A program made the position numbers and the translations under genes. This document shows, piece by piece, positions 1,915-63,837 of a stretch of 64,000 nucleotides of DNA; position 1 is the stretch's first letter; every line of letters starts with the position of its first letter. The stretch is from Mya arenaria (Eukaryota; Mollusca; Bivalvia; Myida; Myidae), in contig NC_069125.1 of NCBI RefSeq assembly GCF_026914265.1, positions 75,455,546 to 75,519,545 of the forward strand, given 5' to 3'. The notes beneath the pieces were generated by a model. The model did not search any database and was not told the DNA's origin. It saw only the letters and a list, made by a program, of their open reading frames with translations.

Positions 1915-4246
1915 TCAATATTTCAAGACGGCAGCAACGAGTGGCGCCAGGATGAGGAAAAGGGAAGCGAGGGGCAGGGCGGCGTCACCGGAAGGATTGT
2001 TGATGGATTCTTTGGCGCCGTAGACGCTGGTGGCAGGCTGATTGCGGACGAATATGCGGCGACCGTTGAGGCTCTGGATGGGCCGGTAGTTGTCCGTCAC
2101 GTTAGAGATCTTGGACAACATACGCACCTGCTCAATCTGAAACAAACCCCGCGAGAGAGTGAAACCACTGAGATGGGCAAATGCGAAAGTGTCATATAAG
2201 TTGGATACTAGTGTAAATTGCATACTTGCGGCCGGATAAAAAACAAATCGTTACTTATAACTTAATGAGGGACCTTTTAAATAAGGCAATACCATTTATT
2301 GTGTCAAGCAAATATTTTTTATTCGAATATAAGTTACATGGAATTCAACAATAAGTCAAGTGTTATTTAAATAATAGATTATTCAATTATTTTAATAACT
2401 GATCAATCAACCGATAACTGCACCAATGTGAGGTCTGGGCATCGACCAAACAGTTTGCGGGAATGTTTTGACAAGTATGAAGGTTATACTTCTAAAGCGC
2501 TAGCTCAGAACGGGAATTGTCGAGGGGCGTGTTCCTATAAATTGAGGTCATGTTTATGTCGAAGATAGTCAGCATCGTCACAAAATGGAGTTGAGAAATA
2601 AAGTGAAAAACAAAAACACTTTTCGATGGAGACTTCTTTTTGCCCTAATAATAAGTCAATTTAAAAGTAGATCAGCCTTATAAGCGATTTTACACCAATA
2701 ATGATATTGATTTGTATACTAATTTCTAAATAGTACACTAAATACCTTTGCAAACCTGCAAACAATGATATTTGTTTTCTTTACGACATGTTAAGCGAGT
2801 GTTATTGACCTTGAATCCATGTGTGTTAATGGGTCCACTAGCCATTTCACATTATAATGTCGCAGTTCACGTAAAACCAAAACGCAATTAAACAAACGGA
2901 CAAAAGGACCAGAGGTTATTAAAGTATTAGGTAGAATCATAACAAGCGGCCACCCTTCCGTTACCTGTTCCTCTGAGATCTCGATGGGTTCTCGGAACAC
3001 AGTCCACACGACACTCTCGGAGCAGGGCGGGGTGGTAAGGGAGCCGTTGTACCGGTAGTACGTCTCCCGGTTGCCAGGCAAAAGCTCGCTCATCGGGAAC
3101 GGACGCACGTTCGCGTAGTCGCCTGTAAAACATAACGTTCAGGCGGTCACGTCTAAACACTAGCCAGGCTGGTAATTTAATAATTTCTGTAAAGTTACCC
3201 TGCTGAGATGGACACTACTGCGACATTTAAAAAAATGCTGTATTGAGCAAAGACTTATAATAACTAGCTCATTTTTAGAGGTGAACGAGGTATAAGCGCG
3301 GAGGGTTGGGGTGGGAGGGGGTCATTCCTGTTTATTTGTTGATCTGACACCGGCTTCATTTAACTATATTTTTCATACATTACAGGTAAACATGAGCTGT
3401 AAGCCATTGGCCCATGATCGAGTGGAGATTATACATTGATATAATATCTTATAATTGGTTGATCACTGCCTTGTTTTCCATGATAAACACGCCGAGTATT
3501 AACATTCTTTATCGATGCATTCCCAGTTGATGCATCACAAAACATCAGAGACAACAGACTTGACTGTTTGATAGATGTTTTATGATAGAGCAAAGGTCAA
3601 AGAGCCCAGTAATTATTTAAGTGATACATTCAGGTAATCAAATATAACTGTTTTTAACTTGATTTTAAAAAAGCGGGTTGATAGTTATCAGTTATAATTA
3701 CCGGATTAAGCGGAAAAATATCCCAAATGCTACAATATGATACTCTGACCATTAAAATTATATGCAATTAAAGGCGTCTTTAAAATGAATGAACTATTTG
3801 GTAAAGTGCATGTTCCTGTATAATGTTTTCGATATTTTTAACTAAAAGGTTGACAAATACTTGATATATTCATTTCAAATTTGTCAACAATAACGGCTTC
3901 ATTTCTTTTAACATTTGGGACGAATAATGCCCCCGACCATGTTAGTCGTAAAGTCACCCTCCTTTCAATTACTCCATTATAAGGGCAAACGTAAACCTCG
4001 CGGAAAGAAAGCGCTCTTAACATAGCTCTTATCAATAATATGCATAAACAATAGATTCATTAATTGGTATATGTTTTGGTTAGTGATCAATGACAAGCTG
4101 TATAAGGCTGACACTGACACGAGATAGAGATGCAAATCTGTATAACTGACCGATGTCGAGAAGCCTAAGGTTATCTATGATGGCCTGGAAGTAGGGGTGG
4201 GGCCGCCCGATCTTGGCGAACACTCCGAGCACAGCCAGTCCCTTGG
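1915..4246 (-). pseudogene. Duplicated 3' end of the carbonic anhydrase gene (left copy): partial exon 5, exons 6 and 7
   Basis: This third copy lies 5,194 bp left of the middle one: truncated exon 5 (4151-4246), exon 6 (3122-2965) and exon 7 (2136-1915). Protein-level sequence is identical to the other two copies and no stop or frameshift is visible. It has no 5' exons of its own. The window begins inside the minisatellite of this unit, so further copies may lie to the left. Confidence 0.85.
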
Positions 4247-12302: not shown

Positions 12303-22984
<10,682 letters not shown>

Positions 22985-24104
22985 GATTGCTAGCTGAGTG
23001 GTCAATGTTTCAATGCCGCCCGTGTTCGTGTGTTCCTCCCAGGTCGAAACCTTACTCACAACTGACTGCACTGAAAAAGGAATAACTCAGGCAGAGCAAG
23101 ACAATATTACCACATTACGGCTTTATGTGTGTAAAACTGTCATATATATAGCGACACTGACGATACCTGGCTTCAACAAGCGGATCTTGGTAGGCGGACC
23201 GTCCGTGTCGTAATCAACAGGCTCCACCCCCCATCGTAGTGACAATTAAGAATGTAATATCATATTCATGCACGTCAAAAGTGCGGTTTGAGAAAATGTC
23301 TCGATCTATATAGTGCAATAAAAAATGCAATATGACAATTTGTTAAAATCGCGCATAAATGATAATAATATGTTGTAAAACGTATTTCCTTTTCCAATCT
23401 TTGATTAAAAAACTGTTACGAGCGAACCAATTAACACACATGCGGTTAGCATTGGAAAATAATTATCCGTAAACAAACATTTTTCATTTTCATGCCAAGC
23501 AAAAAGTATGTTATTTATGTTTCAAATGGGAGCAAAAAATATACTGTTAGGTAAGTGCGCTCATTTGTTTCATCTGCTGCTGGTGGTAAGACATCAATGT
23601 TTTTTTAGGAGATTTACTGGTGTTAGTATATTGGTCCAATGCACATGATGCAACAATCGTTAAAAACGCTACACTGAATAGTAAATGATTTGATTTTAAA
23701 GCTTCAGATTAAAACAATTAATGTTATGTTAAGTGTCCAAACGGTATATATGGGTTGCTTTCTTTCATCGTCATCATTATTTTAGCTATTATAACTATAT
23801 TAAAGATTCTAACAAAAATGAAGATGTATAAAAGCGTGGTGTTGTATTACCCCCATTGAACATGAAGAAGTATTCATTGCGTACCAAGCCTGATTTTCGA
23901 TCGTTTCCATTTATGCAAAGGTTTTTCAAGAAAGGTCAAATATATAATGAAACACTTGAAAAGGCATTTGAGCAAACAAACATAAATCCCCTTTGTTAAT
24001 TAAACCTACGATTTTTTGCCGCACCATATTTTAGAAAGGGAATTCGAAAGCATTATCCGTCGAAAAACACCTGAGTATCGTTCGAATTATCTACGACTAT
24101 TCTA
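22985..24104. other. Upstream region of the carbonic anhydrase gene
   Basis: Contains the probable 5' UTR and promoter (to about 23.2 kb), then AT-rich sequence with no gene or repeat I recognise. Confidence 0.45.
23142..23150 (-). promoter_or_regulatory. Possible TATA box of the carbonic anhydrase gene
   Basis: TATATATA on the minus strand about 160 bp before the start codon, followed in transcript sense by a GC-richer stretch. It would give a 5' UTR of about 125 nt. Position and sequence fit a TATA box; no other promoter evidence is visible. Confidence 0.35.
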
Positions 24105-24690
24105 AGAATTTCCACAATATTCTGTAATAGGCCCTTCCACAATATTCTGTAATAGGCCCTTCCACAATATTCTGTAATAGGCCCTTCCACAATATTCTGT
24201 AATAGGCCCTTTCACAATATTCTGTAAAAGGCCCTTCCACAATATTCTGTAATAGGCCCTTCCACAATATTCTGTAATAGGCCCTTCCACAATATTCTGT
24301 AATAGGCCCTTCCACAATATTCTGTAATAGGCCCTTCCACAATATTCTGTAATAGGCCCTTCCACAATATTCTGTAATAGGCCCTTCCACAATATTCTGT
24401 AATAGGCCCTTCCACAATATTCTGTAATAGGCCCTTTCACAATATTCTGTAAAAGGCCCTTCCACAATATTCTGTAATAGGCCCTTCCACAATATTCTGT
24501 AATAGGCCCTTCCACAATATTCTGTAATAGGCCCTTCTACAATATTCTGTAATAGGCCCTTCCACAATATTCTGTAATAGGCCCTTCCACAATATTCTGT
24601 AATAGGCCCTTCCACAATATTCTGTAATAGGCCCTTTCACAATATTCTGTAATAGGCCCTTTCACAATATTCTGTAATAGGTCCTTTCGT
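24105..24690. repeat. 25-bp minisatellite
   Basis: About 23 units of CACAATATTCTGTAATAGGC plus CCTTC. Variants carry CCTTT, or AAAAGGC in place of ATAGGC, and recur in pairs about 225 bp apart (near 24215 and 24440), a higher-order repeat of nine units. Open in all three minus frames because 25 is not a multiple of 3 and the unit has no stop on that strand. Confidence 0.97.
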
Positions 24691-25239
24691 AAACCTGCTG
24701 TACGACGTATGTGGCAGGGGCTCAAAACGAGTCATGGGAAAATTGGTAAAGATTAACACAGGTCAATTGTGCGATGTTCCTACGATGATAGTCGTAAGAA
24801 ATTAATAAAGTCGTAGGATTAACCCGCGCCAGTCGCAGAAAAGATATACGCTGGAGGATCATTCGTAGGAGTGAAGTGGTTTCGGAGTATGATAATCGTA
24901 GGACTACAAAAACACCACGACTTCTGGGGCTTCAGATGACAAAAAAAACGTACCAAATATTTAGGTATATAATAATACCGTCGCAGGATGCCGTAAGGTA
25001 ACGCACGACAGATCTATGAAATGTGCCTCACGTTCGGAGTTAACGACGATGTTAAAAACTCCTCGACAGTTTCTACAGTGTTTGCAAAAGCACAACTTTG
25101 GGTTAACAGTTGCGACAGGAAAACATCGACAATTTCTATCGCAAGCAACTGAATGCACTAATTCAGCGATTGAGAAACGCTTATTCAAAGTCCCGAGTCC
25201 AGGGAGTGTATACCACGTTCTCCAGGGGACCCTTAACAA
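24691..25239. other. Unassigned sequence with ATCGTAGG-type motifs
   Basis: Includes several short repeats of the type CGTAGGA and TCGTAAG (24.78-24.95 kb). The open frame at 25016-25348 has no recognisable domain in its first two thirds; its end belongs to the integrase remnant. Confidence 0.4.
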
Positions 25240-25560
25240 AAACATTAAGGAATATTTTACTGTCAATGAAAAACTGGTAGCTGTAGGGTTCTTGATTTTG
25301 AGCGGCAACCGTATCGTAGTTCCAAAAGAGTTACAACATAAATTATAATGTTTGAGACACGATGGTCGTCCAGGCGTCTGTTTGTTCAATGTAATACATG
25401 TGTAGTTGTTTTTTCAGACGCGATTGGTGGCCAACAATTAACAAAGCTGTCAAAAGAATGGTCAAAAACTGTCATGGCTGTCAAATGGTCAACAGGAAGA
25501 CACCATCAGAACCCATCCGGCCAACCGAATTGACCTTTAGATCATGGGATTACATATAGT
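25240..25560 (+). pseudogene. Decayed Ty3/Gypsy-type integrase fragment
   Basis: Pieces of the integrase zinc-binding (H2C2) region in two frames. First comes a stretch ending in VVPKELQHKL, like the segment before the HHCC finger. After a stop and frame change, RHDGRPGV marks the degenerate histidine part. In the third frame, RRDWWP is followed by VKNCHGCQM, the C-x2-C pair, then a short P-rich linker. Stops and frame changes show that it is dead. No LTRs, reverse transcriptase or RNase H were found around it. Arg-rich reading at about 26.19-26.26 kb could be the tail of the same polyprotein, but weakly so. Confidence 0.7.
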
Positions 25561-25664
25561 TTGTGATATCTTAGGACATGTAAGATCGTCACTAACCGAG
25601 GTGTTGAAGTTGAGGCTAAAAGGTATGTGACGTCAGAGAATCTTGTGACAATATTTCACATGCA

Positions 25665-26060
25665 TGTCCTACCCGCAACGTTTCACAGACATGTCCTACC
25701 CACAACGTTTCACAGACATGTCCTACCCACAACGTTACACAGACATGTCCTACCCACAACGTTTCACAGACATGTCCTACCCGCAACGTTTCACAGACAT
25801 GTCCTACCCACAACGTTTCACAGACATGTCCTACCCACAACGTTTCACAGACATGTCCTACCCACAACGTTTCACAGACATGTCCTACCCACAACGTTTC
25901 ACAGACATGTCCAACCCACAACGTTTCACAGACATGTCCTACCCACAACGTTTCACAGACATGTCCTACCCACAACGTTTCACAGACATGTCCTACCCAC
26001 AACGTTTCACAGACATGTCCTACCCGCAACGTTTCACAGACATGTCCTACCCGCAACGTT
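25665..26060. repeat. 27-bp minisatellite, open on both strands
   Basis: About 15 units of CATGTCCTACCCACAACG plus TTTCACAGA. Because 27 is a multiple of 3 the frame stays open, as MSYPQRFTD on the plus strand and a GHVCETLWV-type repeat on the minus strand. It lies between the integrase remnant and the possible end of that element. No start context or domain supports a gene. Confidence 0.95.
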
Positions 26061-27547
26061 TCAAACTGATTATGCGCCGTATGCCTAATGTGAAACCTTT
26101 AACTAATTCATGCATGAAAATGGCATCACGTTTAGACATAACCCGAACACGCAAATGTAAAACACAAACACAAACCCCTCATGTTCCACACGTATAAGTC
26201 CAGCTGGCACACACTCTCGTAGAAAGACTAGGTCAACGACTGCCAAGTTTAATGAACGTAATATCAATGACAACGACCGTGGCGCCGAAAACAATACAAA
26301 TTCTAGATAATATGCTAATTCCCGCCGGCACAAACGTGAAAGTGACATTAAAGTACACAACAAAGTTATTTTGCACCAACTGGAAAGCTAAAAAACTGTG
26401 TTTATAAGCCCGACGACATCTTGCCGCTTATATAGCAATTAGGATAAAGGGATATTATGAACACTGAAATGTCAATACTTTGCGTTGAAAAGTACAATTA
26501 AATAACGATGAAGCTATATTACAAACGCGATATTATATTGCAGTATATTTGGGAAAAATATATGTGAGTGTTTCAAAAATAAATATTTATGAAATTTAAA
26601 CTGTATGAGCTCAAGTTTCCCGATTTTATTCTAAAATATGTTTAAAGTTGATAACTTCAAAGTGTCAGCTGAAATAGGAGTGCAGTATCTTATGATTAAA
26701 TGTATTTTGACAGTTTAACACTATTTCGATAGCATGCATACATATGGTTGTGTTTCAAAGAAAGACGACATAACCAAAATTGAAAAGAAGTAATCAGACA
26801 AATAAATGGTACTACAAGCATTTCAATCTTTTGTAGATATATATGTATTGGAAAGTGATTGGAAATAGTCATGCAGTGTCTGTAACTAATTACACATACA
26901 TCTTCAATAGTCCTTTCCTGACAAATTGCTCCATTTTAAAGCATTGAATATTCATTAGATTCAATACCCGAGAACCTCATTGCTATAGACTCGAGAAGCA
27001 GCTAATTACAGTTAAACTGGACAACCATTAAACCGGGGTTTTGATGGTTAAATGTCATGATAATAAATTGGCTTCCTGGTCAAGATAAATGTGTGGTTGG
27101 CCAAGTTTGGTCATTGTTCGGGTTGTGAATGTTTGGATGTGAAATGCATTAAAATTTAAATAGCACTGTTCCATGATTTTAGTTCTATACGAACAATAGA
27201 GATGCAGTGGCTATCTTTTTACATAGGTAGAATGTAGTTAGTGCAGGAGTCCGCAGGTTGGGATGAACGAGTAAAAACGTTTGAAACTTACAATGCGTTT
27301 TCTTTTATTTTGAGTCCCACAGACAATACACGACAGAACCAAAACAAATCTTACCGCAGCATTTTGAAACAACTGCATGTATTTTATCACAGCTACGCTC
27401 ATAAATAAAGTGTTAAACACTGAATGCATGCTTTATTGACTGAAATGGCTGTATATGAGGAAATGTTTAAACCAATTCGGATATTCGCATGCCTGTCAGA
27501 GCGAAAAAAACAGTAGCACTTTGGCATCTTTTTGGCTTGAAGAGTCG
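26061..27547. other. Unassigned AT-rich region
   Basis: No gene supported. The first 250 bp may be the end of the Gypsy remnant (Arg/Ser/Thr-rich frame). The rest shows scattered short frames only. Confidence 0.4.
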
Positions 27548-29785: not shown

Positions 29786-30004
29786 GAGCATAAGATGATG
29801 GGTCTAAAGCGCACATCAACTCGCTCAATGTTGGTGGAGAATGTCTCAAAACCCGGTAAGTTATTGTTTCATGTATTTTTAAAGGACCCGTGAGTGTATT
29901 CTCACAATGTAAAGGGACAGATCGTCAGATGAAATTCAAGAGGAAATATTTTCCCAGACTTACGAAAATGGCACTAGCAAACAAAACAGCAACTGAGTAC
30001 ACAT
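29786..30004. other. Left flank of the 33-bp array, nothing recognised
   Basis: About 220 bp of unique-looking sequence before the array. There is no promoter, signal peptide or splice context that would make the array the body of a gene. Confidence 0.4.
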
Positions 30005-33000
30005 GGTCAGCTTGTGTAAGAATGAAATTGCTTGGTTAATTTGTGCAAGCGTGACACCATCCGAGTGGTCAGCCCGTGAAAGCATGAAAAGCAAGGCATC
30101 AACTAAGTGGTCAGCATATGCAAGCATGATACCAATTAAATGGTCAGTTGGTGCAAGCACAACAGCAACTGGTTGGCCAGATTGTGCAAGCATGACAGCA
30201 ACTGAGTGGTCAGCTCGTGCAAGCATAACATTTACCGAATGGTCAGTTTGTGAAAGCATGACAGCAACTGAGTGGTCAGTTGGTGCAAGCACAACAGCAA
30301 CTGGGTGGCCAGATTGTGCAAGCATGACAGCAACTGAGTGGTCAGTTTGTGCAAGCATAACATCAACTAAGTGGTCAGTTGGTGCAAGCACAACAGCAAC
30401 TGGATGGCCAGATTTTGCAAGCATGACAGCAATTGAGAATTCAGTTCGTGCAAGCATAACATCTACTGAGTGGGCAGTTAGTGCAAGCATGACAGCAACT
30501 ACGTGGGCAGCTTGTGCAAGCATGACAGCAACTACGTGAGCAGTTAGTGCAAGCATGACAGCAACTATGTGGACAGTGAGTGCAAGCACGACAGTGACTA
30601 CGTGGGCCTTTTGTGCAAGCATGGCAGCAACTACGTGGGCAGTAAGTGCAAGCATGACATCAACTACGTGGGCAGTTGGTGCAAGCACGACAGTGACTAC
30701 GTGGGCCTTTTGTGCAAGCATGGCAGCAACTACGTGGACAGTAAGTGCAAGCATGACATCAAATACGTGGGCAGCTTGTGTAAGCATGACAGCAACTACG
30801 TGGACAGTTAGTGCATGCATGACAGCAACTACGTGGGCAGCTTGTGTAAGCATGACAGCAACTATGTGGACAGTGAGTGCAAGCATGACAGCAACTACGT
30901 GGACAGTTAGGGCAAGCATGGAAGCGACTACGTGGACAGTTAGTGCAAGCATGACAGCGACTACGTGGACAGTAAGTGCAAGCATGACAGCAACTACGTG
31001 GGCAGTTAGTGCAAGCATGACAGCGACTACGTGGACAGTTAGTGCAAGCATGACAGCGACTACGTGGACATTTATCTCAAGCATGACAGCAATTACGTGG
31101 ACAGTTTGTGCAAGCATGACAGCGACTTAGTGATCAGTTAGCTCAAGCATGACAGCAACTACGTGGACAGTTTGTGCAAGCATGACATCAACTACGTGGA
31201 CAGTTTGTGCAAGCATGACAGCGACTTCGTGGACAATTAGCTCAAGCATGACAGCAACTACGTGGACAGTTTGTGCAAGCATGATAGTGACTTAGTGGTC
31301 AGTTAGCTCAAGCATGACAGCAACTACGTGGACAGTTTGTGCAAGCATGACATCAACTACGTGGGCAGTTAGTGCAAGCATGACAGCAACTACGTGGACA
31401 GTTAGTGCAAGCATGACAGCAACTACGTGGTTTGTTTGTGATAGCATTACAGCGATTACGTGGACAGTTTGTACAAGCATGACAGCAACTACGTGGACAG
31501 GTTGTGCAAGCATGACAGCGACTTATTGGTCAGTTAGCTCAAGCATGACAGCAAATACGTGGACAGTTTGTGCAAGTATGACATCAACTTCGTGGACAGT
31601 TGGTGCAAGCATGACAGCGTCTACGTGGACAGTTGGTGCAAGTATGACAGCGTCTACGTGGACAGGTTGTGCAAGCATGACAGCGTCTACGTGGACAGTT
31701 GGTGCAAGTATGACAGCGTCTACGTGGACAGTTGGTGCAAGTATGACATCAACTGCGTGGACAGTTTGTGCAAGTATGACAGCAACTACGTGGGCAGTTA
31801 GTTCAAGCATGACAGAGTCTTCGTGGACAGTTGGTGCAAGTATGACAGCGTCTACGTGTACAGTTGGTGCAAGTATAAAATCAACTTCGTGGACAGTTTG
31901 TGCAAGTATGACAGCAACTACGTGGGCAGTTAGTTCAAGCATGACAGCGTCTTCGTGGACAGTTGGTGCAAGTATGACAACGTCTACGTGGACAGTTTTT
32001 GCAAGTATGACAGCGTCTACGTGGACAGTTTGTGCAAGTATGACAGCGTCTACGTGGACAGTTTGTGCAAGTATGACAGCAACTACGTGGGCAGTTAGTT
32101 CAAGCATGACAGCGTCTTCGTGGACAGTTGGTGCAAGCATGACAGCGTCTACGTGGACAGGTTGTGCAAGTATGACAGCAACTACGTGGGCAGTTAGTTC
32201 AAGCATGACAGCGTCTTCGTGGACAGTTGGTGCAAGCATGACAGCGTCTACGTGGACAGGTTGTGCAAGTATGACAGCGTCTACGTGGACAGTTTGTGCA
32301 AGCATGACATCAACTACGTGGACAGTTTGTGCAAGTATGACATCAACTTCGTGGACAGTTGGTGCAAGCATGACAGCGTCTACGTTGACAGGTTGTGCAA
32401 GCATGACAGCAACTACGTGGGCAGTTAGTGCAAGTATGACATCAACTTCGTGGACAGTTGGTGCAAGCATGACAGCGTCTACGTGGACAGGTTGTGCAAG
32501 TATGACATCATTTTCGTGGACAGTTGGTGCAAGCATGACAGCGTCTACGTGGACAGGTTGTGCAAGCATGACAGCAACTACGTGGGCAGTTGGTGCAAGC
32601 ATGACAGCGTCTACGTGGACAGGTTGTGCAAGCATGACAGCAACTACGTGGGCAGTTAGTGCAAGTATGACATCAACTTCGTGGACAGTTGGTGCAAGCA
32701 TGACAGCGTCTACGTGGACAGGTTGTGCAAGCATGACAGCAACTACATGGACAGTTTGTGCAAGCCTAACAGCGACTACGTGGACAGTTAGTGCAAGCAT
32801 GACAGCAACTACGTGGGCAGTTAGTTCAAGCATGACAGCGTCTTCGTGGACAGTTGGTGCAAGCATGACAGCGTCTACGTGGACAGGTTGTGCAAGCATG
32901 ACAGCGTCTTCGTGGACAGTTTGTACAAGCCTAACAGCGACTACGTGGACAGTTAGTGCAAGCATGACAGCAACTACGTGGGCAGTTAGTTCAAGCATGA

Positions 33001-34960
33001 GAGCGTCTTCGTGGACAGTTGGTTCAAGCATGACAGCGTCTACGTGGACAGGTTGTGCAAGCATGACAGCAACTACGTGGACAGTTTGTGCAAGTATGAC
33101 ATCAACTACGTGGACAGGTTGTGCAAGCATGACAGCGACTTATTGGTCAGTGAGCTCAAGCATGACATCAACTACGTGGACAGTTAGTGCAAGCATGACA
33201 GCGACTACGTGGACAGTTTGTGCAAGCCTAACAGCGACTACGTGGACAGTTAGTGCTAGCTTAACAGCAACTACGTGGATAATTTGTGCAAACATGACAG
33301 CAACTACGTGGACAGTTAGGTCAAGCATGACAGCAACTTCGTGGATAATTTGTGCAAACATGACAGCAACTACGTGGATAATTTGTGCAAACATGACAGC
33401 AACCACGTGGGAAGTTTGTGCAAGCATGACAGCAACTATGTGGGCAGTTTATGCAAGCATTACAGCAACTACGTGTGCAGTTTGTGTAAGCATGACAGTA
33501 ACTACATCTACAGTTTGTGCAAGCATGACAGAAACTACGTGGTTAGTTTGTTCAAGCATGACAGCAACTACGTCGGCAATTTGTGATAGCATGACAGCGA
33601 CTACGTGGACAGTTTGTACAAGCATGACAGCGACTACTTGGACAGTTTGTGCAAGCCTGACAGTGACTACGTGGACAGTTAGTGCAAGCATAACATCATC
33701 TACGTGGTCAGCTTGTGCTAGCCTCACAGCAACTACGTGGACAGTTAGTGCAAGCATGACAGCAACTACGTGGATTGTTTGTGCAAGCATGACAGCAACT
33801 ACGTGGATTGTTTGTGCAAACATGACAGCAACTACGTGGACATTTAGTGCAAGCTTGACAGCAACTACGTGGACAATTTGTGCAAACATGACAGCAATTA
33901 CGTGGGAAGTTTGTGCAAACATGAAAGCAACTATGTGGGCAGTTTATGCAAGCATTACAGCAACTACATGTGCAGTTTGTGCAAACATAACATCAACTGA
34001 TTGGTCAGTTTATGCAAGCATAACCGTAACTACATGGTCAGTTTGTGTAAGCATGACAGCAACTACGTCTACAGTTTGTGCAAGCATGACAGAAACTACG
34101 CGGTTAGTTTGTGCAAGCCTGACATCGACTACGTGGGCAGTTTGTGCAAGCATGACAGCGACTACGTGGGCAGTTTGTTCTAGCATGACAGAAACTACGC
34201 GGTTAGTTTGTGCTAGCATGACAGCGACTACGCGGGCAGTTTGTGCAAGCCTGACAGCGACTACGCGGGCAGTTTGTGCAATCATGACAGCGACTACGTG
34301 GGCAGTTTGTTCTAGCATGACAGAAACTACGCGGTTAGTTTGTGCTAGCATGACAGCGACTACGCGGGCAGTTTTTGCAAGCATGACAGCAACTACGTCG
34401 GCAGTTTGTTCTAGCATGATAGCGACTATGTGGGTAGTTTGTGCAAGTCTGACATCGACTACGTGGGCAGTTTGTGCAAGCATGACAGCAACTACGTGGG
34501 CAGTTTCTGAAAGCATGACATCAACTGAGTGTTCAGCCCTTGCAAGCATAACAGCAAATGAGTGCTCAGTTTTTGCAAGCATAACAGCAACTAAGCGGTC
34601 GGTTTGTGAAAACATTACAGCAACTGCGTTGTCAGTTTGTGAAAGCATGACAGCAACTGAATGTTCAGTTTGTGAAAGCATGCTAGCAACTGAGTGGTCA
34701 ATTTGTGCAAACACGACAGCAACTGAGTGGGCAGTTTGTGAAAGCATAATAGGAACTGAGCGGTCGGTTTGTGAAAACATTACAGCAACTGCGTTGTCAG
34801 TTAGTGCAAGCATGACAGCAACTGCTTGGTCAGTTTGTGCAAGCATAAAATCAACTGAGTTATCAGTTCGTGCAAGCATAACAGCACCTGCGTGGGCAGT
34901 TTGTGCCAGCATGACAGCAACTACGTGATCAGTTTGTGCAAGCATAACAGTAACTGAGTG
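30005..34960. repeat. 33-bp minisatellite, about 150 units, in frame on both strands
   Basis: The consensus unit is GTGCAAGCATGACAGCAACT plus ACGTGGACAGTTT (33 bp, so 11 codons). The plus strand reads as repeats of CASMTATTWTV, with one uninterrupted frame of 1,204 codons (31314-34928) and only a few stops before it. The minus strand reads as MLAQTVHVVAV-type repeats in frames of up to 535 codons. Subfamilies are zoned: CTGAGTGGTCAG units at both edges, GCGTCTACGTGGACAG units at 31.6-33.1 kb, CTACGTGG units between. A real protein cannot be excluded, but there is no signal peptide, splice context, unique-sequence terminus or preferred strand. Confidence 0.93.
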
Positions 34961-35401
34961 ATGAGTTGCGTACATGTCAAAGCAGTTGAAGGTAGGTTCT
35001 GGAAGACAGGCATAGCCATTGAAAGAGCAATTGAAGCAACAAATAAAGCGTGTCAACGCCAACCGAAGTATTATAAAATGCAAAATTACGCCCATTGAAA
35101 CATAAGGGTTAAAATTACTTCATAAAAAACTGGTTATGAATTTGTATGTTTTTTGCTTAAATTACATATACGTTTGTTATATGCAGCGGTTATATTCAAT
35201 TGTTCACGTTTTAAAAAATATAAACTTTATTGATTTTAGGAGATTGGTTCAAGTACTCGTAGTACATCAGTACTTAGGTGGATTAGTTTGGCGGGACACT
35301 AGTAACATGATTTCCTCGTGTTTTTGAGGGTACATGGGGAAAACGATTTTGTTTTCGTCACTCGTTGTTTTGTATTTGGTGGAATAAGAAGTTATTTTAA
35401 A
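34961..35401. other. Spacer between the 33-bp array and the recombinase element
   Basis: Unique-looking AT-rich sequence. The left boundary of the following element is not marked by any inverted repeat or split direct repeat that I could see; the run AGTACTCGTAGTACATCAGTACT-like at about 35,250 is locally palindromic. Confidence 0.35.
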
Positions 35402-57272: not shown

Positions 57273-57622
57273 ATCATAATTGTCTATGTACAAGGGTATA
57301 CATGTATTCACATGAATATACATGGTCGCAATTTACAAATTGTACTTAGATCCACCTAAATCATTGTTTATTTTACTATTAATATAATTTATATTATATA
57401 TTATTTAACCTCAAAGATAATTAATTAAAGTTGACCATTAGTACTTGCATTCAGTTTCTTTGTATGACATTGCCGGAACATTGAAACAAGCTGAATATCA
57501 ACCACCTGTGCAGCATGTGTAAAACGTGCTTATTATCACCTGTGCAGCTCATGTAAAACATGCTTTTTTATTAACTACGTGTGTTTGAGCGTCACCACTT
57601 GATTTTGTATCTTTGATCAAAT
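57273..57622. other. Spacer before the transposon
   Basis: AT-rich intron sequence; a small duplication of CACCTGTGCAGC(T/A)T(G/C)ATGTAAAAC-type sequence occurs at 57.5 kb. Nothing else. Confidence 0.4.
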
Positions 57623-57759
57623 CGTCCCATTGGTGCAAAAAGGTACCAAACAACATTTTGACCAAAACTGACTTTTCACTAATTTCAGTAATAAATTACT
57701 ATTATCTAGCTTGTCTAAAACAATCTCCACTAAATATTGAATATTGACTGAGATATTGG

Positions 57760-57950
57760 TTCATGCAGTTTGGTACCAAGTGAAATTTGTGCTTTTGATT
57801 GGTGGAAAAAGGTACCATATGCCATCTGGTGTATACAAAAAGGTGCTATAAGACACATGGTACCTTTCTGCATTAAATTATTGTTACAAATTATATATAA
57901 GTTTTATGCAAAAAGGAGCCTTATGGCATGTAGTACCTTTAAAGGGACCA
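57760..57950. repeat. Left subterminal GGTACC palindromes
   Basis: At least three motifs of the form TGCAAAAAGGTACCATATG...GGTACCTTTNTGCA, some paired into hairpins: around 57801-57873 and 57907-57948. The same motif makes the inner part of the terminal repeat. Candidate transposase binding sites. Confidence 0.6.
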
Positions 57951-58444
57951 AACTGCTTTGTTTAAAAGGTGTTATTTTTGGTCAGAAATGTATTGCATTT
58001 CACTATTTCTGGCAAATTTTCACAATTAAATGCATTTATCTTGTCCGGTTGATCAAAATATGCTATTTCCTGGTTTTCACAACTTTCGCCTATATATTTT
58101 TTTTTTAAATGAGCCGTCTGCAATCTTAGGAGCACTAAAAATGTCCAAATTTGGTGAAAATTTGACTGGGAGAACTTGAAATGTGTGCAAAGATGTGAAG
58201 AACTGCCCCATTTGATGCTTAGAGTGCCATTTGAGTCAAGGTTCAGTTGAAAAACCTCTTAAAGAATGGCATTTTGGGCCAAAACGCCTTAGAAAATACA
58301 GACGCACAGGCACTTGGGGGACAGGCAGTGAAACTGGAAAACCTGACACAGACTATCAGATTGAGCTAGCTTTGGGTGTATTTATGTATGAAGGACTAAT
58401 CAAAAGTGTTTTTCATAAAAAATGCAGGGACGGGTGTAGTTATA

Positions 58445-59022
58445 GGAATGACGTCACCATTACGTCATATGTACTTCCGTTGTGTGGAAAATTCTCAATA
58501 AAAAAAAAATGTTCTTATGATTGATAGACATGTTTTCACATGCTCAATACACTCAAATCAAAACTATCATTATTCCTGAAACTTTTATACCTTAAGTATC
58601 TATTCTTGCTTGATTTATCATTTAGAGTAGAGATTAAAGCATAAACCGCTGCCCTATAGTTGAAAGGTCATTTTGGAAGAACTGTCATGGCGGACGGTGC
58701 AATTTTTAGAGTTTGTTTTTCAAGTGGAGTGATTTTTCTTAGGAATAACTGAGGTTTTAGGTTACACACCACCATTGTTTTTCCCTATATAATTCAATGT
58801 AAAATTATATTTTTCAGACAACATTTAAAGGCATTTCGAGCGAATGCAGGCTATGATAACCACATATATTCTTAAAGTACAAGCTTTAAATTACATTTTA
58901 AGCCAATAAAAAAGGGGGGTCAAGTTATTCCTAAGAAAAATCACTCCACTTGAAAAACAAACTCTAAAAATTGCACCGTCCACACAACGGAAGTACATAT
59001 GACGTAATGGTGACGTCATTCC
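58445..59022. mobile_element. Nested foldback element with 100-bp perfect inverted repeats, left arm split
   Basis: The right arm 58923-59022 is matched, inverted and without mismatch, by two left pieces: 58445-58488 (44 bp, begins GGAATGACGTCACC) and 58692-58750 (59 bp). The pieces share GGA at the break and are separated by 203 bp, as if another sequence inserted with a 3-bp duplication. It lies upstream of the transposon gene. TGACGTCA, a perfect CRE palindrome, occurs in both arms. No coding capacity. Confidence 0.8.
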
Positions 59023-59063
59023 TTAATGCATCAAACAATTTTAAAATATTACATAGATATTGC

Positions 59064-59245
59064 GATGTAAAAAGGAGCCATATGACTTGTGGCACCTTCT
59101 TGCATGAACTTATGCTAACTAAATAAGTAAAAAAAATGTGCAATAAGTGACCAAGTGGCATATGGTTCTTTTTTGCATAAATGATTTTGATTAGAATGTT
59201 AACATTTTGCAATATATAAGATGTTTACATGGTACCTTTATGTAC
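59064..59245. repeat. Internal GGTACC/CATATG palindromes before the transposon gene
   Basis: Two hairpin-type motifs (59064-59106 and 59148-59178) and a GGTACC at about 59231, related to those at the transposon ends. They sit about 170-350 bp before the proposed first exon, so they may be regulatory as well. Confidence 0.5.
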
Positions 59246-59418
59246 TGATAGCAATACACAACTTTCTACTAATTAACTCTGATAACTGTGCTATCAAGTT
59301 AACAAGTGTCCGAGAGGTAATTATCACTTTCTGGGGGATTAGATTACAGCAGGTGTTCTTAACTTCACATTCCAAAAGTGTATTTTGTTCATTAGGAAAA
59401 AAGATTTTGCAGGGAAAT

Positions 59419-62400
59419 ATGGATACAAAAACAAATGTAAGTATTTTATTCAGTTAATTACAAAAAAACAATAATTATAACTAGTTTTGGTGCATTAAAT
59501 AAAACTCATTATATTATTATTCTATAAAGTTGTGGTATTGTAGGAATTAAGTGTTCTAATTTTGCATTGCAAAATGACCTATTGAATGTGTTATTAGCGT
59601 TAAATACTTTTAAATTAGTTCTATAAATTTAGTAAGGCAATTTTAACATAATAATGTTTCAGGAAGATGATATTACATGGTCAGATGAGGATATCTACTA
59701 TGCGGCCCCAATTGATAATTTAGTTGGTATTACACAAACTAAAATTTGTGCAGATATTCTAGCATCAAGCAGCACTGTTCATGACAGTTCTGCTTCACAG
59801 AAATCCGATTCTGAAGATGAGATTTCATTAGCAGATATACAAAGGCGTCAAGGACTGCGCTTACCTGTCAAAAGAAAATTAATAGATGCAAGTGAAGAAG
59901 ATACCAATGACAGCGTTTGCGATGAAACCTACAAACCGAGCAAGGATGATACAACGTCCACTGAATCAGAAAATGAGACTGTATTAGGAAAAAATAAACA
60001 AACACGAAAACGCAGATTTCAGCGAGAAAAGGCATGGAAGAAAAATTCCAAAACCTACCAAAATCAAGCAAATTAATTTAAATAAAAGATGTGAAAAAAC
60101 ACAGAGAGATGTCCATCGAAAACTAACGAACAGAATCAAACAGTTACAAAATAGGAGACGCAAAAAGACAAGCGATTCAAGCCCTTTGGAAAGAGCAAAG
60201 CGTTTAAGTAAAAATATGCATACAGTGCAAACAATTGTACGACGGTCACACATATCACGACTGGATAATTTGCTTGCAAGCAACGATCTTAAGCGAGTTA
60301 ACGTACGTGGAGTCGGAAACTGCTTTTTTAGTGCAATCAGAGAAAGTGGAAATAAATTTATTACTGATGATGTATACATACAAATCTGTGTAAATTTATG
60401 TCGGAAAACAGTGAACATTATATTTCATTCTGTTCAAGCAAAACCACAGATCAAGTGTTTGGTACTGAGCAGTTCACAAGTGAAATTGAGAAGTTAAAAA
60501 CCAGTGGGCAATGGGATTTAAGTGTAGGTGATGTTTTGCCATTGGCAGTGGCAAATTACTACAAATGTGCTGTTCGTACATTCTCCAGCTCACTATCTAC
60601 ACCAGTTATTGAAATACGGCCGGAAATTGCATCTGAAAAGGTTATACATCTTGCTTACGTGGCAATAAGAGGAGAAGAGCACTATGAAGCAACATGACAT
60701 GTACATGATACAGCTTATCAAAGTCCAAAGAAAACAGTTTCAAGCCGTAAGAAGAAAAGAAATCCTGAACAGTGGAAACGAAACATACAGAAAAAAAGAG
60801 TAATACGGGTAGTGAATATATTTCATCAGCTGGTAAATTTGTACCAGGAAAAAACGTCCAAGCTCACACGTGCACCAAATGCTGGTTTAAATGTAGTGAA
60901 AAGATATCAGAAGAACAGAGAAAAGAAATCTTTGACTTTTATTACGGACTTGCAAATTATGAACGACAAAGACAATATATATGTGACATGGTTGAAACCC
61001 TTTTGCCAACCAGGAAGGGTAAAAACAAACGCTCTATATCACACAAGTTTCACCTTCCATCTCAAGATAAAAGGCAACGTGTATGTCGTGATTTTTTTCT
61101 GAAAACATTAGACATCAAAAGAAAGACAATTGATTACACAACTTCAAAACGACAGCATGGTGCATATGGAGGGAGTGATGGGAGAGGAAAAGCTAAAGCT
61201 GTAAACAGACTTAACCAAGAATCAGTTGACTTTGTTAGGCAGCACATTGAGTCATTCCCAAGAATGGAGTCACACTATTCCAGAAAAAAATCCAAAAAAG
61301 AATACTTAGCACAAAATCTTAACATAAAAAAGATGTGGAAACTGTACAGCACACAATGCGAAAAGTAAACTGTGTATCCAGTTAAGCAAAGCAAATATCA
61401 CCAGATCTTCTGTGAGGATTACAATCTTTGTTTCTACAAACCAAAAAAGAATCAATGTTCATTATGTGATTATATAAAAGAAAGCAAGCAGCTGGTAATA
61501 TTGATGAAAAGTTGATCAAAGCCTACGAAGAACATCAGTTGAACAAAGTAAAAGCAAGAGAAGAAAAGGAAAAAGACAAAGAGAGTGCAAAGCTGACAGT
61601 AGTGTTTATGTTGCAACATTTGACTTGCAGGCAGTTCTTACAACTCCATGTTCATTGGTCAGTGAGCTATACTACTGTAGAAAGCTATGTTGCTATAATT
61701 TGACCATTTATTCATTAAGAGACAAACAAGTCTTTTGTCACCTTTGGGACGAAACCCAGTGTAAACGAGGCTCTTCCGAGATAGCTACATGTCTCATGAA
61801 AAATACTATGTCAGTTTGTTTACAAAGTAATGTTAAAGAGATTGTGTATATATCTGACACTTGTAGCGGGCAAAACAGAAACCAGTATGTAACAGCATCC
61901 TTTCTGTATACACTTTCACAAGTACCACAACTCAAAACCCTTAGTCACAAGTTTCTTCTGTCAGGACATTCTCAAATGGAATGTGATTCTGTTCACTCAA
62001 CAATAGAAACAGCAAAAAGAAAAACGTCCATTTTTGTTCCATAGCAATGGAGTACACTAATAAGTTTGGCAAGGAAGACAAACCCTTATGTTGCAGTTCC
62101 AATGAAATACAACCATGTGGTAGACTTCAAGAAATTTGTGAAAAAATACTGTCCAAACTTAAAGGTGTCAACATCAGGTCAGCGTATAAAGTGGATGCAT
62201 GTTAAATGGATTCAAGTAAGGCAGTCCTCACCAAAAAGTGTCTTTGTGAACTATTCATTTGACATGAACTCATTTCTAGAGATAGCTGTACAAACCACAA
62301 CAAGACAGAAGGGAAGGGTATTGAAGTGGCCTGAATCTGCAGCTGACATAGACATGCTATATGACAGCAAACTACCGATCTCCGTGCAAAAGAAAAATGA

Positions 62401-62533
62401 CTTAGTTGGCCTTTGCACCAAGGATATCATACCAGAGGAGTTCCATACTTACTTCACCTCACTAAATGTCAGCAAAACAAACACAGATGTCGTGCCAATG
62501 TCATCGGACGATGAAGATACTGATATTGAATGA
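59419..62533 (+). pseudogene. Transposon gene: acidic N-terminus, OTU protease-like domain, transposase-like region (frame-broken)
   Basis: A possible first exon MDTKTN (59419-59436) ends at GTAAGT; the acceptor at 59661-59662 opens EDDITWSDED. Blocks: (1) acidic/Ser-rich, 59663-60076; (2) basic linker then OTU start RGVGNCFFSAI, to about 60390; (3) after a frameshift the rest of the OTU domain with the histidine box EEHYEA, TGA at 60695, then RNPEQWKRNIQKK; (4) after a shift near 60800 a Cys-rich region (CTKCWFKC), then HIESFPRMESHYSR and NLNIKKMWKLY, TAA at 61366, then KPKKNQCSLC; (5) a charged helix from about 61,500; (6) from about 61,615 FDLQAVLTTPCSLVS, SDTCSGQNRN and SGHSQMECDSVH, TAG at 62042, then a C-terminal part ending in an acidic tail. 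The three acidic motifs of block 6 look like an RNase H-fold (DDE/D) active site. Three in-frame stops and about five frame changes mean this copy is dead. Confidence 0.75.
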
Positions 62534-63275
62534 ACCGCGTATTTCAAAATGCAAGGATTCATTTTTCATACCTGAAAATGCTAGTGCTTTATTGTAGAAC
62601 TATTATCCTCATAAGCTTGATGTAGGATTTCTTTGCATAACACAGCGAGTACTATTGTGTGTACATGTATACGTATAATAAGTATGTATTGCAAACCGTT
62701 TACATGTTTAACGATTATGATACTGAACGTGACACCAAACCTTGATCTTTGTAAAATATTAGTAGTTCAAATTGTTGTACATGTACCATATATTAACAAT
62801 TATGACATTTACTAAACTATAATATATATAAATAATCTTTTTATTCACTTATATTTGACATATTGTACCAAATGTTGCATTATTAAAGATCAATGAACAT
62901 CTCTTATGTTATGAGTTTGATATTTATGCCACATAGCATTAAACATTAAGGTACCATATGACATAAGGCACTTTATAACATGATCATTTTATCTGATTAT
63001 CCCAATTGAGGTTTATGCAACAAGGTACCACTTGCCATATGGTTCCTTTTCACATTATTTGTTTTACCATATCACCTTATGCAAGAAGGTACCATGATAC
63101 AAAATTAGCTAATTAACCTTAATTATCCATTGTATTGATATGCAATAAAGGCAACATTTAGAATAAACCATTTAAGATGAGTGATAAAAGTTTCACTGGC
63201 ATTAAATCATTTTCTGATTTTTTAGGAGCCGCCAAACCTTTAAACTCATTTTTCTCGAAAGTATGAAAATGTCAC
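62534..63275. other. 3' part of the transposon with right subterminal palindromes
   Basis: Non-coding. GGTACC motifs occur at 62948-62975, 63015-63053 (TGCAACAAGGTACCACTTGC, paired with a later GGTTCCTTTT) and 63079-63100, mirroring the left side. Confidence 0.6.
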
Positions 63276-63302
63276 TTGGTACCTTTTTGCACCAATGGGA
63301 CG

Positions 63303-63837
63303 AAAAATTTAATCAATTATTTAATTAAACACCCGTACTATGTTTTCACAGTTTGCAAAAATACTTAATTGAAACTCAATGGCATAACTAATTTATATTC
63401 TTGATGTTGGTGCATGGGTTTCTGCGCTAATTGACATATTGTCCCATTGTATTGTCATAAACATGAGTAGGGTAGACGTAGCATGAGATTGGCATATTGA
63501 GAATTTGCATATGATTTAGGAACACAGTTTCGATTATTCTTTTTTTCCAAAAAAAAGAGAAAATTCATGAAATATAGTACCTCAGAAAATGTCCTTTTTT
63601 GAAAAACCATGAAAATTGAAGCCCAAAAATATAAATGATTTAACAGTATTTGTTTCATATTTTGAAGACTTGTCTGGATTTGTTGTATTAAATGTAAAGT
63701 TATTACATAAAAACTTATTACCTTTTGGTATTAGAAGCTTATTTTTTTTAAAAATCCAGGTAAGTAAATTTTTTGTATGGAAAATGAAACAAGTACAATT
63801 TTAAACAAGAATTAGATTGGAAACATATATTTTTGAA
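63303..63837. other. No recognised feature
   Basis: AT-rich sequence right of the transposon; one 67-codon minus frame without a domain. Confidence 0.4.

Follow-up and report, generated by a model that had tools for sequence, protein, structure and literature searches.

OTU-bearing transposons are already known, namely Ginger1 and the Helentrons. In Ginger1 elements, which end in terminal inverted repeats (TIRs), the transposase is fused to an OTU protease, or in other families to Ulp1 (PMC2836005), and Ginger1 OTU families are listed for Hydra, Aplysia and pea aphid (PMC2836005, table 1). Helitrons and Helentrons carry OTU and VTD domains, besides or instead of each other (PMC9741609, PMC4067079). 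VTD has been shown to act as a deubiquitinase (DUB), and its exchange with OTU in herpesviruses and Helitrons was pointed out by the same authors (PMC9741609). The present analysis concerns a stretch of 64,000 nucleotides from the bivalve Mya arenaria (NC_069125.1, positions 75,455,546 to 75,519,545; hereafter the window), in which positions 57623-63302 are occupied, as judged by sequence comparison, by a decayed copy belonging to a TIR DNA transposon family of the M. arenaria genome. This family differs from the known OTU-bearing transposons in the type of its transposase, in the N-terminal position of the DUB and in that no place carries both DUBs. An OTU DUB is fused here to a transposase with a DUF7869 domain (Pfam PF25273), and we consider it likely that the DUB aids transposition.

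The evidence comes mainly from intact relatives, a search for which had been proposed in a preliminary description of the window. A Pfam DUF7869 search of the element's own 1.2 Gb genome gives 139 matches (150 scored of 308 candidates), and these include near-identical copies with frames of 974 amino acids. The reference copy, L065 on contig C3, is a 4,210-bp element with ends similar to those in the window and a single 974-aa frame, in which Pfam recognises both an OTU domain (PF02338; residues 197-312, 26.0 bits against a cut-off of 23.3) and DUF7869 (residues 715-858, 34.7 bits against a cut-off of 26). OTU and transposase are connected in this polypeptide by a basic linker some 50 residues long. 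The OTU part aligns over its full length to OTUD3 (4BOU, E 5e-4), GDGNC and EHYD falling in register, and the putative catalytic residues C201, H318 and D320 are present. Two designed helical proteins outrank OTUD3 in the same structure-sequence search and were set aside as sums of weak repeat matches.

With the L065 OTU protein as query, 14 places are found at 99-100% identity, 12 of which keep the 974-aa frame. The ends of these copies (L065 and 13 others) were examined at their expected positions, and both were located in 12 of the 14; the left end is not at the expected place in the copies at C9:43,583,590 and C11:69,621,391. All 12 two-ended copies agree in the outermost 30 bases of either end and are flanked by perfect 4-bp target duplications (ATAT five times, AAAT twice, and ATTT, ATGT, ATGA, ATAC and GTAT once each), which points to a staggered cut of four bases. 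Between the copies on C2 and C3, identity reaches 99.88% over 4,101 bp. Empty paralogous sites were found for all three insertion sites queried, out of the 12 with joined flanks. For the site on C12, 10 full-length matches are listed at 92-98% identity and the joined flanks translate without a stop; the translation presumably resembles a Gypsy RNase H. The other two insertions sit in tandem arrays, and the units next to them are free of the element. Inverted repeats, a duplication of fixed length and empty sites, by which cut-and-paste TIR transposons are recognised, are thus all found by sequence comparison, and DUF7869 identifies the transposase of an element that was active recently. Given the perfect duplications, the empty sites and the near-identical copies, the OTU is part of that mobile element, as the preliminary description had proposed in speaking of an OTU-armed cut-and-paste transposon. 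Some DUF7869 matches in the genome are split over short, exon-like frames, as would be expected if OTU and DUF7869 belonged to a family of host genes and to no transposon; this explanation has next to no probability, and for the L065 family it is already refuted and was rejected, given the identical ends, the 4-bp duplications at 12 places and the empty sites.

The window copy measures 5,680 bp, and its termini (CGTCCC...GGGACG) coincide exactly with the coordinates first proposed. Its features are as follows.

57619..57622, no strand: left target-site duplication AAAT (flank sequence)
57623..57649, plus strand: 5' terminal inverted repeat, 27 bp, perfect
57940..59020, no strand: nested insertion, approximate limits, foreign to the element proper (missing from three relatives)
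59419..59436, plus strand: probable first coding exon (ATG...AAT; same layout in intact L065)
59663..60043, plus strand: N-terminal acidic/basic region of the fusion protein (tblastn with the L065 protein, 36% identity)
60306..60694, plus strand: OTU cysteine-protease domain, Cys box and His box in different frames
60796..62524, plus strand: transposase region, interrupted by frameshifts and by TAG at 62042
61727..62029, plus strand: DUF7869 match (Pfam) with SDTCSGQNRN and GHSQMECDSVH
63276..63302, minus strand: 3' terminal inverted repeat, 27 bp, perfect
63303..63306, no strand: right target-site flank AAAA (flank sequence)

The arms are identical over their first 27 bp, and 38-nt arms match at 92%. 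Three of four bases agree between the flanks AAAT and AAAA, which corresponds to a 4-bp duplication with one mismatch. Near each of its ends, the element also contains several short internal copies of a terminal motif of the GGTACC type. A candidate intron follows the small first exon (donor GT at 59437, acceptor CAG at 59660-59662); its splicing is predicted from sequence, and the same layout of small exon and intron is common to the window copy and intact L065. The OTU Cys box RGVGNCFFSAI lies at 60306-60338 (Cys codon at 60321) and the His box EEHYEA at 60674-60691, ahead of the transposase-like region as originally described. The OTU pieces of the window themselves stay below the threshold in a Pfam scan, and the domain is assigned because the homologous intact L065 reaches Pfam OTU. 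Compared with L065 by tblastn, the transposase pieces show 60% (60796-61467), 48% (61431-61580) and 68% (61538-62524) identity. The frame 61508-62044 contains FDLQ, SDTCSGQNRN and SGHSQMECDSVH, and matches DUF7869 with 33.5 bits (cut-off 26, E 4e-8), FDLQ standing about 35 residues ahead of the match.

The preliminary description had read these motifs as one plus-strand gene. Motifs and gene order hold; this copy, however, is broken, since the pieces that correspond to the intact 974-aa relative lie in three frames and are interrupted by stops at 60695 (TGA) and 62042 (TAG). With its frameshifts, stops and an inserted repeat of about 1.08 kb, the window copy is dead. Its assignment as an element nevertheless goes beyond chance, because the 3' end alone has 45 matches in the same genome (from 40 scored of 97 candidates) and because termini and gene order recur in the intact copies.

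A second OTU lineage is represented by L104 (949-aa frame) and L105 (1,412-aa frame, of which 1,169 aa lie within the stretch read), each of which encodes OTU and DUF7869 in a single frame. Compared with L065, the OTU of this lineage shows 36% identity (E 2e-14), with HGNC and EHYD retained. The termini of this lineage, like those of the VTD-bearing L067 described below, were not found within the stretches examined. Because OTU and transposase share one frame in two intact lineages, the OTU is fused to the transposase, and is not the separate, unrelated insertion that the preliminary description had named as the finding to set against it. The three OTU-lineage proteins whose ends were read close with an acidic tail containing DTD (SEEEDTD in L065, SDDEDTDIE in window 62500-62530, ESDADTDVE in L104), which is not present in the VTD-lineage proteins L066 and L067.

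In a sister clade whose termini are related, the place of the OTU is taken by a VTD deubiquitinase domain. L066 and L069 are two copies of a 9,700-bp element, 98.6% identical over 8,559 aligned bases, and a third copy of their VTD, 98% identical, lies on C10. Their termini are CGAGGGG...CCCTCG, the inner motifs resemble those of the OTU family (GCGAAAAGGTTCTA against GCAAAAAGGTACCA), and the two copies are flanked by perfect 4-bp duplications, ACTT and ACCT. The 1,466-aa frame of L066 begins with an N-terminus like the herpesvirus tegument DUB (PF04843, Herpes_teg_N), at 19.9 bits below the cut-off of 25, which a related protein, L067, exceeds (27.3 bits). The two are 33% identical in the VTD domain (E 5e-39), and L067 also matches 8ADD, a Helitron VTD structure, its QC and FDSHSR falling in register. 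The DUF7869 scores, against a cut-off of 26, are 36.4 bits for L066, 48.2 for L067 and 28.3 for a further gene, L068. Over 590 aa, the transposases of OTU-bearing and VTD-bearing elements share 37.6% identity (E 5e-121), and no match was found by blastp between their N-terminal parts. Long in-frame tandem peptide repeats occur in the middle of the L066 frame (DKSCRDGVTRDV-like) and at the start of the L105 frame (EQQSTAGVL-like).

How regularly a DUB accompanies the transposase was counted across the genome. Transposase-core hits (the best 150 of 264 candidates) were merged into 130 places and compared with hits of the L065 OTU (42) and the L066 VTD (61), an upstream DUB being counted if it lay within 7 kb on the same strand. 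The 130 places comprise 35 with OTU, 21 with VTD, none with both and 74 with neither, many of the last being fragments. Among the 47 places with frames of at least 300 aa the corresponding numbers are 25, 12, 0 and 10; the 25 OTU places include the 14 near-identical copies and are not independent events. Co-occurrence upstream by chance is expected at about 3 in 10,000 per place. Viewed from the DUBs, a transposase lies downstream of 35 of the 42 OTU hits and of 23 of the 61 VTD hits. A DUB is therefore common but not obligatory beside the DUF7869 transposase. Related transposases that lack an OTU occur as well: the 22 long-frame places without OTU have either VTD (12) or neither domain (10). 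In a tree of nine core sequences, one branch (support 99/98) separates five OTU rows, two of which are near-copies, from three VTD rows, so that a single exchange between OTU and VTD is enough. The tree is small and the row of L068, which lacks a DUB, is a long branch, so it gives no direction of change.

Within the transposase, D674, D752, E793 and D795 (L065 numbering) are invariant in the five proteins of each of two alignments, with spacings of 77 and 40/42. The protein is a putative DD(E/D) enzyme that would use D674, D752 and either E793 or D795, and the order of the likely strands and helices, read by eye, would fit an RNase H core. Relatives were sought in viral contigs and in bacterial and archaeal contigs, where none was confirmed, and a search of NCBIfam returned one chance match only.

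Several observations weigh against the explanation favoured here, in which the transposase is a DD(E/D) enzyme and the fused DUB aids transposition. The third catalytic acid is uncertain (E793 or D795); a search with the transposase profile against PDB sequences gave no match up to E 10; and the AlphaFold2 model of window 61508-62044 alone, from a single sequence, is too poor to interpret (pLDDT 36.9). In L104, Pfam recognises DUF7869 only (29.5 bits), its OTU being recognised not by Pfam but through L065. Upstream of DUF7869, L068 carries a PHD-like finger, read by eye, in place of a DUB, and 10 of the 47 long-frame places have neither OTU nor VTD upstream. The OTU is also less constrained than the transposase, with pN/pS values of 0.53 against 0.20-0.29 (window against L065) and 0.64 against 0.52 (L104 against L065), all of them rough, as synonymous sites are saturated and the window copy is dead. 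The last two points are those expected if the OTU were a passenger, fused by chance and without a role in transposition. This explanation is very improbable, however: both intact OTU lineages retain Cys, His and Asp, none of the 130 places combines OTU with VTD, and the OTU, if seemingly under weaker constraint than the transposase, still has pN/pS below 1.

Ginger1 resembles the present family as a TIR element with a transposase-OTU fusion, but has a Gypsy-type integrase and a C-terminal protease (PMC2836005) where the elements described here have DUF7869 and an N-terminal one. Membership in Ginger1 was rejected, no rve match being found in L065, L066, L067, L068 or L104; likewise, hhalign detects no similarity between the DUF7869 core and a Ginger-like integrase (probability 0.2%). 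A likely Ginger1-like member is present in the same genome, with rve integrase and OTU frames at L008 1-3249. In a genome search for OTU (best 150 of 221 candidates) the score is 49.1 bits at this place and 48.4 bits at each of 24 others; the same search reveals a high-copy OTU repeat with 87 places at 41.1 bits, 83 of which have a 646-aa frame.

Helitrons and Helentrons share with the present elements the occurrence of OTU and VTD DUBs within one class of transposons (PMC9741609, PMC4067079). They are rolling-circle elements with RepHel, whereas the present ones have TIRs and target duplications, and 121 VTD-bearing Helitrons are described as having OTU as well, a combination seen here at none of 130 places. 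A Helitron was rejected on the TIRs and duplications, and no Rep or helicase match was found at E up to 0.1. A parallel to the exchange itself is that between the large tegument proteins of herpesviruses and alloherpesviruses, where one virus group has VTD and a related one has OTU in its stead (PMC9741609), although these DUBs sit in a viral tegument protein without a transposase. Kolobok and KolobokP are DDD/E transposons, the latter rich in bivalves (PMC9587614). They resemble the present elements in their 4-bp duplications and accessory enzyme, and the Kolobok C/DxxH motif also fits DSVH here (PMC9587614). Kolobok, however, is specific for TTAA and has RR...YY termini, and was rejected since TTAA occurs in none of 14 duplications here, where targets vary and the termini are CG...CG.

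Sola elements were reportedly described by Bao in 2009. They are known from bivalves (PMC10294476), and Sola2 has short TIRs, a large transposase and AT-rich 4-bp duplications (ATAT, AAAT, ATTT; PMC3627910). The duplications of the OTU family are of 4 bp in 12 of 12 cases and follow AWWT in 8 of them, the others being ATGA, ATGT, ATAC and GTAT; ACTT and ACCT of the VTD elements are not of this type. Because of this match in target duplications, a kinship of the OTU family with Sola2 is plausible. The passages on Sola in PMC3627910 and PMC10294476 name no DUB, whereas the present elements carry OTU or VTD. Neither a mention of DUF7869 nor a DUF7869 or Sola element bearing OTU or VTD was found in the literature searched, a body that leaves most subscription journals outside.

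The element has a single gene, probably with one 5' intron, for the N-terminal OTU and a transposase of about 600 aa with the DUF7869 core. In the mechanism proposed here, the fusion would cause the DUB to be carried to the transposon ends along with the transposase. There it may strip ubiquitin from the transposase, the transpososome or nearby chromatin and repair proteins, so that the transposase would escape degradation or integration would be completed. The preliminary description had left two roles side by side, protection of the transposase and its maturation. A maturation enzyme would cut the fusion into OTU and transposase, and the linker in a single polypeptide, together with the frequency of polyprotein processing among viral DUBs (PMC9741609), would suit it. 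Two unrelated folds, OTU and VTD, nevertheless occupy the same place; a maturation protease would hardly swap its fold so freely, and the trait common to both classes is ubiquitin removal. Protection through deubiquitination is accordingly the favoured part of the earlier proposal, and self-processing appears improbable. A target in chromatin or in host repair and signalling (e.g., ubiquitinated histones or damage-response factors) instead of the transposase is rather unlikely. It would agree with the proposal of Bao et al. that Ulp1/OTU of Ginger1 may activate downstream DNA-repair factors (PMC2836005), and with the PHD-like finger of L068, but the fusion in cis is compatible with either target.

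The nested insertion consists of a unit of a ~500-bp repeat, tandem elsewhere, and a foldback with perfect 45- and 59-nt arms. Six relatives were compared, and in three of these (L040, L041 and L044) element position 318 joins 1400 directly. Because all three also lack element 2799-3797 they are deletion derivatives, and L040 and L041, which have common flanks, count as one insertion. The repeat unit covers window 57933-58440, its listed genome copies are mostly 91-97% identical, and on several contigs it forms tandems with periods of ~501 bp or ~970 bp. It may resemble the terminal direct repeats of bivalve KolobokP elements (PMC9587614). The foldback, at window 58444-59023, is contained in the insertion within the transposon. 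Elsewhere in the window, long open frames on both strands (21926-26197 and 29960-35119) are translations of tandem repeats, probably satellites.

For DUF7869, a domain of unknown function, these results supply a role as part of a recently mobile TIR transposon. More broadly, and tentatively, at slightly less than an even chance, DUF7869 may be the marker of a eukaryotic transposon superfamily with the DUB as a working part, OTU and VTD excluding each other as they do between herpesviruses and alloherpesviruses and partly in Helentrons. The elements add a further case of mobile DNA in which OTU and VTD deubiquitinases replace each other, here in a young family with a compact 4.2-kb unit, and a VTD fused to a cut-and-paste transposase is a possible source of domesticated and viral VTDs. 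The older idea of ubiquitin control in transposition becomes testable by one point mutation. The presence of two unrelated folds in one place suggests that ubiquitin removal is part of these elements' way of life; if so, these parasites would be overcoming a general barrier raised by the host, namely ubiquitination of the transposase or of its target.

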